A DNA stretch of 64,000 nucleotides from Kiloniellaceae bacterium (GTDB taxonomy: Bacteria; Pseudomonadota; Alphaproteobacteria; Kiloniellales; J153): the NCBI GenBank assembly GCA_021776115.1, contig JAJFGN010000039.1, positions 1 to 64,000 of the forward strand, read 5' to 3'. Both the position numbers and the translations under genes were made by a program. The notes beneath the pieces are model-generated. The model did no database searches. It was not told where the DNA came from and saw only the letters and a list, made by a program, of their open reading frames with translations. Below are positions 53,751 through 55,718 of the stretch, piece after piece; position 1 is the stretch's first letter; each line of letters begins with the position of its first letter.

Positions 53751-54821
53751 TTACCGGCTAGCACGGCCCGCGCGCCGCTCGGGTCCAGGAGCCCGCGTCA
53801 CGGCACTCAGGGCCTGGGCACACAACAGCTCGCCCGGCGCGCCGCTGCGCTTGCAGGCCCGCTCGGCCTCGAGCAGCGCGGCTAAGGCCTTGCTTAGCCT
53901 GTCCGGTGTCCAGGCCTGTGTCTGCGCTCGAAACCGTGGCACCGATTTCCAGAACGGCGGCGGCCGCAGCTTTTTCATCGCCGCGTCCGGCGCGGCACCC
54001 TGCACGACCAGGCCGGCGACCAAATGTAGCCGCTGCAAATGCCGGGCCGCCGCCCGCAAGATCGCCACCGGGTTCGCCCCTTCGCGCAGGCTCCGCGACA
54101 GGGCGCGCTCCATCGCCAGAAGATCGCCGTCGCCAAGGGCATAAGCCAGATCGTCCATGGAGAGGGCCGCGTTGTCGCCGATACAGGCCTGCGCGTCCTC
54201 GATCTCAATCCGGCGCCGCGCCGGCTGCGGCTCACCTCGGCCCGCGCCCATATACAGCAGCAGTTTCTCAAGTTCGCACCGGGTCGTCATGCGGTCGCCC
54301 CCTAGGTTGGCGACGAGATAGGCAAGCGCGTCGGGCGCCGCGCTCAACCCGGCCTCCCTCAAGGTCTCCCCAATCAAGGCCGGCAACACGCGCTCGTCGT
54401 CGCGGTAACAAGGCAGGGCCGCGGTCTCGGCCGCACCTTCGAAGGCTTTGCGCAGGGCGGAGCGCGCCGGCAAGTCGCCGGCCTCGACCACAACCAGGGA
54501 ATCGCTTGGCGTTCCGGCCAGCAAGCCGGCGACCGCCGGCGCCGAAGCTTCGTCGGCGTCGCGCAAGCGCACGGCGCGGCGGCCGCCGCCAAAGGCCATC
54601 GCGGCCGCCTCGTCGCCTAGGCGCGCCGGATCGGATTTCACCTCGGCGTTGGTCAGCTCCGCGACGCGAAACGGATCGGCGGGATCGCCAGCCACCAAAG
54701 CGGTGAGGGCGCGCGCCCGCTCGCGCACCAAACCGCTATCCGGACCGTAGAGCAGCACCGCGCGCACGGCCGGCGGCGGTGCGCGCAGGAAACGTTCGAT
54801 ATCCCTTGGGGCGATCTTCAT
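53751..54821 (-). CDS. holA: DNA polymerase III delta subunit HolA
   Basis: Opens the sliding clamp within the clamp-loader complex. From the ATG at 54821 it has 356 residues: IERFLRAPPPAVRAVLLYGP, the SGLVRERARALTALVAGDPA block, LVANLGGDRMTTRCELEKLL and LREGANPVAILRAAARHLQR. An ATG 18 bases upstream (54839) lies inside the palindrome element. No ribosome site is visible ahead of either start, and the 264-bp element begins 5 bases upstream of 54821, so the leader was probably replaced. In other alphaproteobacteria holA directly follows lptE. Confidence 0.93.
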   Translation of the reverse strand: MKIAPRDIERFLRAPPPAVRAVLLYGPDSGLVRERARALTALVAGDPADPFRVAELTNAEVKSDPARLGDEAAAMAFGGGRRAVRLRDADEASAPAVAGLLAGTPSDSLVVVEAGDLPARSALRKAFEGAAETAALPCYRDDERVLPALIGETLREAGLSAAPDALAYLVANLGGDRMTTRCELEKLLLYMGAGRGEPQPARRRIEIEDAQACIGDNAALSMDDLAYALGDGDLLAMERALSRSLREGANPVAILRAAARHLQRLHLVAGLVVQGAAPDAAMKKLRPPPFWKSVPRFRAQTQAWTPDRLSKALAALLEAERACKRSGAPGELLCAQALSAVTRAPGPERRAGRASR

Positions 54822-54825
54822 GTCG

Positions 54826-55089
54826 AGAGCATAGTCCATTCATATTGAATCATTTGACCGGTATTTCGCGTCTGCTGGCTAGGCACGGTTCACGCTGCGG
54901 TCTCGATGACCGCAAGTGGGCCGTAACGACGTCCAGCGGGCGCGAAATACCGGCCTCCGGTGGGCCAAATCAGGCCATCGTCGTCGTTACGAAACTTGCC
55001 CGATGCCCCGCATCGCGCTGCGTTCCGTGCCTAGCCGAGTGACCTGATTTGGCGCCATCAAATGGTTCAATATGAATGGACTATGCTCT
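54826..55089. repeat. 264-bp multi-palindrome element between holA and the LysE gene
   Basis: The ends are inverted repeats matching at 31 of 32 positions (54826-54857 with 55058-55089; left end begins AGAGCATAGTCCATTCATAT). Inside are further pairs: B 54858-54878/54933-54953 (19 of 21), C 54877-54888/55025-55036 (12 of 12), F 54923-54931/54982-54990 (9 of 9), D 54964-54974/55043-55053 (11 of 11), plus hairpins 54897-54913 and 55001-55015. B+D and C+F cross one another, so two alternative folds exist inside the same outer stem. No coding potential. It fills the gap exactly, starting 5 bases before the holA ATG and ending 5 bases before the LysE stop. Confidence 0.85.
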
Positions 55090-55094
55090 AAGCT

Positions 55095-55718
55095 TCAGGC
55101 CGCGCGCCGGATCGTGGCGGTTAGCAACCCGGCCCCAATCAAAAAGGAGCCGCCGATCCGGTTCACGGTCTTCATGGCCGAGGTCGAGCGGAGGCTCCGG
55201 CGCAGGCGGCTCGCGAAGAGCGCATAAAGCAGGGCATTGATCACCCCCAAACCGACAAACGTCGCACCGAGCAAAACGAACTGCGGCAGCAAGGACGCCT
55301 CGGGCGCGACAAAGTGCGGTAGGAAGGCGACGTAGAAGGCGATCGACTTCGGATTCAGCGATGTCACCAGCCAAGTTCGCGCCAGCATAGCCCGCCCATC
55401 GCCGGCCCCCGCCGCAAGGACCTCGACCGGCGCGGGTGGGCTCCGCCACATCTTGACGCCCAGCCAAATCAAATACATCGCGCCGGCCCATTTCAGCACG
55501 GTGAAAAGCGTGGCCGAGGCCGCCAATATCGTCCCCAGACCGATCAACGAGAGCGTGACGCTGGTCGTGTCGCCCAAGCCGACGCCCGCGACGCAGGTCA
55601 AAGCCGCGCCCCGGCCGCGCGCCAGCGCGTACGACACAACAAGAATAACCGTCGGTCCGGGCACAGCCAGGACCGCGACGGTCGCCAAAACATAGCTCAG
55701 ATACAACTCGATCGGCAC
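55095..55718 (-). CDS. LysE/RhtB family amino-acid exporter
   Basis: A 207-residue inner-membrane protein with about six hydrophobic helices. MPIELYLSYVLATVAVLAVP followed by the family signature GPTVILVVSYALARGRGAAL, then VAGVGLGDTTSVTLSLIGLG and NPKSIAFYVAFLPHFV place it in LysE/RhtB. The substrate is unknown. It lies between holA and lptE, and interrupts the common lptE-holA adjacency; the palindrome element borders its 3' end. Confidence 0.93.
   Translation of the reverse strand: MPIELYLSYVLATVAVLAVPGPTVILVVSYALARGRGAALTCVAGVGLGDTTSVTLSLIGLGTILAASATLFTVLKWAGAMYLIWLGVKMWRSPPAPVEVLAAGAGDGRAMLARTWLVTSLNPKSIAFYVAFLPHFVAPEASLLPQFVLLGATFVGLGVINALLYALFASRLRRSLRSTSAMKTVNRIGGSFLIGAGLLTATIRRAA

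Follow-up and report, generated by a model that had tools for sequence, protein, structure and literature searches.

Between two minus-strand genes of a Kiloniellaceae bacterium, positions 54826-55089 of the window (the whole stretch of 64,000 nucleotides that was analysed) form a 264-bp nested palindrome with an outer stem of 31/32 matches, far above chance. What is it: a MITE-like mobile palindrome, a mosaic of nested insertions, or a structured RNA that switches, the three options offered by a sequence-only reading of this DNA? The 32-bp outer inverted repeat with 31 matches described in that reading was borne out (54826-54857/55058-55089, 97%), and an inverted-repeat search found the further inner pairs where they had been placed: 54858-54878/54933-54953 (21 nt, 90%), 54964-54977/55040-55053 (14 nt, 93%), 54877-54888/55025-55036 (12 nt, 100%), and 54922-54931/54982-54991 (10 nt, 100%), together with a hairpin at 54998-55018. 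The RNA minimum free energy (MFE) of the element is -160.9 kcal/mol, compared with -90.2 +/- 5.5 kcal/mol for dinucleotide shuffles (z -13.0; 0/200 as good). The minus strand gives a z of -12.5, and folding with DNA parameters (z -13.3) leaves the picture unchanged. The palindromic structure at 54826-55089 is not due to chance. The two sets of pairs that had been described as mutually exclusive are both present and do cross each other. Forcing the crossing pairs to form lowers the stability by 11.5 kcal/mol, to -149.4 kcal/mol for the best fold, and the probability of the crossing pairs in the free ensemble is 0.0. The features of the locus are listed below; the gene names are those of the sequence-only reading, R1 is a covariance model of a single hairpin module, TIR stands for terminal inverted repeat, and features without a strand are given by coordinates alone.

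53751-54821, minus strand: holA, with the start common to congeners at 54821
54825-54826: left target dinucleotide position, GA here, TA in most type-1 copies
54826-54857: left TIR, outer stem A, a type-1 end (A)GAGC...TCC, 31/32 complementary to 55058-55089
54858-54953, minus strand: arm 1, a hairpin module (R1 80.5 bits, E 1.3e-16; this copy is itself among the R1 builders)
54877-54888: conserved arm motif, can pair across the arms with 55025-55036 (crossing fold), weak covariation
54896-54914: apical hairpin of arm 1, adjoining the conserved CTTG (minus strand), from the MFE structure and covariation
54922-54931: conserved arm motif CGTAACGACG (GCGTTGCG-type on the other strand), can pair across the arms with 54982-54991
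54954-54960: linker joining the arms, between the R1 matches, CCTCCGG here, CCTTCGG and similar in other copies
54961-55054, plus strand: arm 2, the homologous hairpin module (R1 77.2 bits, E 7.4e-16; this copy is itself among the R1 builders)
54982-54991: arm-2 partner of 54922-54931
55001-55015: apical hairpin of arm 2 (CGATGC...GCATCG) with CTTG just before it, from the MFE structure; 98.2% of cells paired, 2/5 stem pairs invariant
55025-55036: partner of 54877-54888, GCCT-type motif of arm 2
55058-55089: right TIR, outer stem A', from the inverted-repeat search and covariation
55089-55090: right target dinucleotide TA, site CTAA
55095-55718, minus strand: LysE-type gene (lysE), upstream of the element on the same strand

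Sixty-six full-length copies of the element were collected, of which 57 were aligned (alignment A1) and nine, being truncated, deleted or very divergent, were omitted. In the fold composed of the outer stem and two arms, 91.9% of 3700 cells are paired, 53 of the 66 pairs have changes on both sides, and the covariation score is 0.488 compared with 0.149 for shuffled alignments (0/500 as high), with slid controls not exceeding 0.125. Double changes are found in 26 of the 32 pairs of outer stem A, where 96.8% of cells are paired, in 16 of 21 pairs of the arm 1 stem helix, and in 11 of 13 pairs of the arm 2 stem helix; the inner stems have them in 20 of 28 pairs and score 0.372 against 0.149. The sequence-only reading had proposed two alternative structures, and while the first of them covaries strongly, the second does so little: the crossing pairs score 0.149 versus 0.097 shuffled (0/500 shuffles as high; slid controls at most 0.059), with double changes in 11 of 22 pairs, and are for the most part conserved sequence rather than covariation.

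Arm 2 aligns with the reverse complement of arm 1 as one module, in which motifs of the GCGTTGCG, CTTG, and GCGCCT types surround an apical hairpin; the arm alignment (A2) used 63 of the 74 listed arms. The element is thereby shown to be a TIR stem within which two diverged copies of a hairpin module of approximately 95 nt stand in mirror orientation, joined by a CCTTCGG-type linker. Because the modules are mirror images, each strand contains one sense and one antisense module, and the crossing fold exists mainly because the arms are inverted homologous copies, complementary at their conserved motifs. These arm motifs hold their sequence across families while the stems change. Two loci (L043 and L088) have short tandem duplications of the apical hairpin within an arm, as if the hairpin amplifies itself. 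GTTAGGC/GCCTAAC-like strings in the arms suggested an attC site of integrons, a reading that was set aside in view of the known attC core sites.

On the minus strand the order of features is lysE, element, holA. In three congeners (G001, G002, and G003) lysE and holA are both present and the element is absent, i.e., the site is empty in 3/3, and the lysE stop is separated from the holA start by only 6 nt, 15 nt, and 8 nt, respectively. The element was accordingly inserted into a very short lysE-holA spacer in this lineage; three clean losses would be the less simple account. The statement that it exactly fills the gap has to be amended, as the lysE stop (55095-55097) and the holA start at 54821 are separated by 273 nt, and the element takes up 264 of these. 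Nor has a normal holA leader been removed, as had been suggested: with congener spacers of 6-15 nt there was no long leader to remove, and the element was added. The holA start common to the congeners is 54821 (MKIAPRD...) and not 54839, and the extra residues of the longer holA ORF start in the TIR and are missing from all three congeners. An in-frame ATG provided by the left TIR (54821-54839, minus strand) adds six residues (MDYALD) to the apparent holA ORF, and gene callers may prefer this TIR-borne ATG over the common start. The only ORF of at least 80 aa that is mostly within the element is an 87-aa GTG frame whose start lies inside holA.

The window's own genome (G000) contains 11 places matching the element at E ≤ 3.6e-49 and six at E ≤ 2e-9, 17 including the window copy, several of which are truncated where a contig ends; a pair of them may therefore be the two halves of a single copy. 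The best match reaches E ≤ 1e-5 in 26 of 58 genomes (own included) and the lax limit of E ≤ 1 in 49 of 58. Further copies and empty sites, the first check that the sequence-only reading had called for, are accordingly on record, and the second copy and compensatory changes whose absence it had named as fatal to the proposal are both present. With R1 at a limit of E ≤ 0.001 and up to 10 candidates scored per genome, matches were obtained in 44 of the 385 genomes sampled from the class. Of 398 genomes sampled from the phylum, 26 have a match, 14 of these 26 being outside the class; the own genome is counted in both samples. Among 11 non-class loci, four (L284, L285, L286, and L289) have a divergent module pair and seven a single module (E ≤ 0.01), and TIR palindromes are present in 5/5 of those inspected (5 of the 11). 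Parts of the form found in genome G631 match two megaplasmids (Halomonas and Variovorax) in a stretch that is without annotation; the window element itself has no match among plasmids. The arm DNA pattern occurs in at least 119 stretches of named genomes, with matches listed among Kiloniellales, Rhodospirillales, Hyphomicrobiales, Rhodobiaceae, Anderseniella, Pelagibius, Inquilinus, and Roseibium records; one cultured host with copies is Roseibium sediminicola. Many family matches stop at contig edges, and the element therefore probably also breaks assemblies.

These results show that the repeat family is real, widespread, and structured, and that its ends and insertions are like those of transposons. 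Its module is present in 44/385 sampled genomes of the class, yet no Rfam family matched at its gathering score (the three matches obtained are far below gathering scores), and no description of the element was found in a literature search that mostly covered papers readable without subscription. A divergent subfamily (L047, L049, and L050, in family f4 genomes) has another outer TIR and a different arm 1, with a nearly identical arm-2 apex. Exact copies of the arm-2 apical hairpin by itself (16-17 nt) are found at G000:C33:85893-85909 and at more than 10 other places where the rest of the element is unmatched.

We consider the element to be a non-autonomous, MITE-like mobile palindrome belonging to a Proteobacteria-wide family, most likely moved in trans by an IS630-type transposase and with its fold presumably kept as DNA, and we place the probability of this reading at roughly 0.85. 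The MITE-like option of the sequence-only reading is strongly supported by the dispersed copies, empty sites, edge duplications, and TIRs; the first three, as read from genome comparison, show the mobility of the family. Like bacterial MITEs in general, the element is short, non-coding, and bounded by TIRs, has dispersed copies with empty sites, and, in one of its two forms (type 2), has a target-site duplication. The TA target and IS630-like TIR of IS630-derived MITEs are found in the other form, type 1, to which the window copy belongs, and not in type 2.

The same core is found within these two terminus classes. Type-1 ends read YTA/GAGC...GCTC/TAR (slashes mark the element edges). TA is present at both sides in 48 of 65 type-1 copies, with no longer duplication. 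In the flank profile of the 65 copies, left position -1 is A in 64 and left position -2 is T in 59, and among the 47 copies with TAGAGC at both ends the left TA is preceded by C or T in 46. The count of 48, against 46.4 when shuffled, comes from sites too uniform for shuffling to tell duplication from target preference. The window copy has GA at its left edge and TA at its right, and the left GA counts against the mobile-palindrome reading. Type-2 ends read TNA/TACCAA...TTGGTA/TNA, with a 3-bp TNA duplication; flanking 3-mers are identical in 25 of 49 type-2 copies, compared with a shuffled mean of 13.6 and a maximum of 24 in 500 shuffles. The preferred target of IS630 is the TA of CTAG, and some groups of the IS5 family typically duplicate TNA. 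Elements with type-1 (GAGC) ends, at TA in YTAR and mostly in CTAG, were most likely moved in trans by a transposase of the IS630/Tc1-mariner family, and the type-2 (TACCAA) ends on the same core would imply another transposase or cutting geometry. The window copy, which has type-1 ends, landed in the very short lysE-holA spacer.

IS630-type insertion sequences (ISs) are present in the same order, in 18 of 61 genomes at E ≤ 1e-20. Like type-1 copies, the IS630/Tc1-mariner ISs of the order have TIRs that start with TAGAGC and TA flanks; unlike the element they encode a DDE transposase. Of 30 IS630 loci, six have a TIR pair by the criterion used in this analysis, all beginning TAGAGC, and 24 do not. 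The best agreement is with an IS630-type IS of genome G020 (L112), whose TIR begins TAGAGCGTAATCCG and which agrees with type-1 ends at 22/29 positions in one TIR and 21/29 in the other; the match of the TIR tails beyond TAGAGC was reached by 0 and 7 of 2000 shuffles. A second IS (L114) has a weaker tail match, reached by 112 and 96 of 2000 shuffles, and for the four remaining ISs the tail match was reached by 3, 31, 2, and 14 of 300. No IS630 transposase of the L112 type was detected in the window's genus at E ≤ 1e-20, and the IS630 transposase domain PF13358 has no match in G000, G001, or G002 and two short fragments in G003, one of them over the cut-off. The TIR lists of G000, G001, G003, G005, G009, and the one-contig G788 contain no facing TIR pair 1-3 kb apart that could be an autonomous partner. 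The ends and targets suggest that DDE transposases move the copies in trans, the enzyme for type 1 being IS630-like.

The positions of the copies relative to genes bear on whether the element acts in RNA. Gene context was determined for 115 full copies with at least 400 bases on each side, using a codon-usage script rather than a standard gene finder, with expected counts taken from intergenic lengths in the same loci. Five copies had no gene call, and of the 110 called copies four were the same place in two collections, so that final counts are based on 106; before removal of these duplicates there were 60 tandem, 30 convergent, and 19 divergent copies, and 231 G.U versus 239 A.C pairs. The 106 distinct copies comprise 57 between tandem genes, 30 convergent, 18 divergent, and one inside a called gene. 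Since 62.1, 16.5, and 26.4, respectively, are expected from intergenic bases (p 0.0009), convergent sites are enriched and divergent sites depleted. The median distance to gene 3' ends is 6 nt for tandem and 12.5 nt for convergent sites. A stop codon lies within -4 to +2 nt of the element edge at 44 of 117 adjacent gene 3' ends; 42 of these 44 stops are TAG or TAA, and 36 are exactly where the duplicated bases and the first base of the element form the stop. Insertion at the TA of a TAG or TAA codon rebuilds the stop, which helps to explain the copies that abut gene 3' ends.

A structured RNA element, whose transcribed hairpins would act in mRNA as a terminator, an attenuator, an RNase III site, or a two-fold switch, would account for the very stable fold and for the 57 of 105 distinct classified copies that lie between tandem genes, and a terminator-like role would also fit the convergent enrichment, the divergent depletion, and the closeness to gene 3' ends. 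The stop-codon position, however, is at least partly explained by the TA target, and the copies have no significant orientation preference relative to tandem genes (24 same, 33 opposite, p 0.29). Read on the element's plus strand, the 57 aligned copies contain 234 G.U and 175 A.C pairs (p 0.004), as RNA would have it. Two near-constant T.G pairs of arm 1 account for this excess; without them the counts are 171 and 172. On the transcribed strand of the 57 distinct tandem copies, G.U pairs are as frequent as A.C pairs (224 vs 226, p 0.96). A small and biased control of five tRNAs from the same loci has five G.U and no A.C. The equality on the transcribed strand indicates that pairing is kept essentially strand-symmetrically, as DNA. 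No Rfam match came near significance, and the alternative fold, just 11.5 kcal/mol less stable, covaries little. We regard an RNA function as improbable. The switching RNA that had been one of the original options is not supported, given the little covariation of the second fold, its origin in the inverted arms, and the lack of a G.U excess on the transcribed strand. As a main explanation the RNA switch was rejected on covariation, the G.U versus A.C counts, and constrained folding; the crossing fold is thermodynamically possible.

If the fold is kept at the DNA level, what keeps it? Among 54 disjoint pairs of copies (only identical element sequences having been removed), the compensated fraction of changes rises with divergence, from 0.07 and 0.09 through 0.21 and 0.26 to 0.36 in five bins, which speaks for changes that accumulate step by step as the lineage spreads and against an instant correction. 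A comparison of conserved with variable positions in young pairs was discarded as circular, since conservation had been defined on these very sequences. Template switching at the replication fork could by itself correct palindromes to perfection without selection, leaving the family as fossil junk. The strand-symmetric mismatches fit this, as do the forms missing one or both arms, which are clean palindromes themselves. An instantaneous correction would not give the observed rise, though a slow one is compatible with it, and the arm motifs, unlike the stems, keep their sequence across families. Correction without selection is rather unlikely on this evidence. In the preferred reading of a mobile palindrome, the folded form would be kept as a cruciform or as single-stranded hairpins because only copies retaining the fold go on spreading, and the conserved arm motif would probably be bound by a protein, either a transposase or a host factor.

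By kind, the element stands with ERIC, Correia, and RUP as these are described in PMC2229807, and in its site habits it resembles REPs as described in PMC3733652; the double module and two end types set it apart from all of these. ERIC, Correia/NEMIS, and RUP are TA-flanked MITEs of 107-155 bp forming a single end-to-end stem-loop, and RUP has been tied to IS630-Spn1 through TIR similarity and TA targets (PMC2229807). The element resembles these in being a short, mostly intergenic palindrome with TIRs and a stable single-strand fold. Unlike them as described there (PMC2229807), it is 264 bp long, has two homologous inverted hairpin modules and a core common to two end types, and has matches in several proteobacterial classes. 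The CIR element of Caulobacter and other alphaproteobacteria is approximately 110 bp, with two arms and a linker, no 5'-3' end stem, and GANTC at a terminal loop (PMC2229807). Two linker-joined arms, intergenic location, and alphaproteobacterial conservation are common to both, and the element differs from the CIR as there described in its 264-bp length and 32-bp outer stem (PMC2229807). GANTC is found in only 20 of the 57 aligned copies, 16 of them in the left TIR, which does not agree with a CIR.

According to PMC3733652, REPs are 20-40 bp long with GTAG/CGTC tags, lie mostly between tandem or convergent genes near 3' ends, and often supply a TAG stop through their termini; the element shares with them inverted hairpin units, tandem and convergent sites, the nearness to 3' ends, and stop-codon supply. 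The mirror-image modules might be giant REPs in a BIME-like arrangement, with a tyrosine (RAYT/Y1) transposase that moves or recognises them. A conserved CTTG stands beside the apical hairpin of each module, and the modules are inverted, like REP dimers, which in A. variabilis and H. neapolitanus are placed within a longer palindrome (PMC3733652). G000, G001, and G002 each have one Y1_Tnp gene, but G003 has many copies and no Y1_Tnp match, and no good module is present within 1.5 kb of the Y1 genes of the other three genomes (best 14.8 bits, E 0.31). The modules are approximately 95 nt rather than 20-40 nt and have other conserved motifs, and REPs are not described there as having transposon-type ends with an edge duplication (PMC3733652). 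The element has CTTG beside the hairpin and no 20-40 bp GTAG/CGTC palindrome, and G000-G002 contain no repeat-flanked RAYT gene. A REP/BIME origin is highly improbable. The Y1_Tnp (RAYT-like) frame of the window's own genome encodes 222 aa (L125, G000:C54:42594-42881) and has no module alongside.

Size variants of the element differ by whole arms. Among 89 near facing TIR pairs, chosen by eye from the TIR lists of G000, G001, G003, G788, G005, and G009, 63 are full length (240-300 bp), 10 are of one-arm size (140-180 bp), 13 of zero-arm size (40-65 bp), and three are other. L092 retains only arm 2 and L093 only arm 1, and nine palindromes of 48 bp (L128-L136; seven in G001 and two in G003) are zero-arm forms, with TIRs and almost nothing between them. 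Arms are thus lost whole and cleanly. Conserved arms would be of no use to a passive MITE, and their conservation is a point against the MITE reading. It is conceivable, though we hold it only tentatively and think it doubtful, that across Proteobacteria a DNA-hairpin unit, the two-arm core, is conserved in its own right and has been combined with two or more different transposition ends (those with 2-bp TA and with 3-bp TNA duplications). A protein would then recognise its mirror-image modules in the folded state, as single-stranded or cruciform DNA, and the core rather than the ends would be the true selfish unit. With the same double hairpin in two sorts of transposon end, clean arm loss, and landing at stop codons, the old question of why many bacterial MITEs retain an elaborate internal structure becomes testable.

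The remaining option, a mosaic of nested insertions, does not apply to the window copy, since the two-arm architecture is conserved as a unit. At another locus (L295, 99-566) four module matches stand in a row (-,-,+,+), with type-2 ends inside an AGAGC-ended element, and there one element appears to be nested in another.
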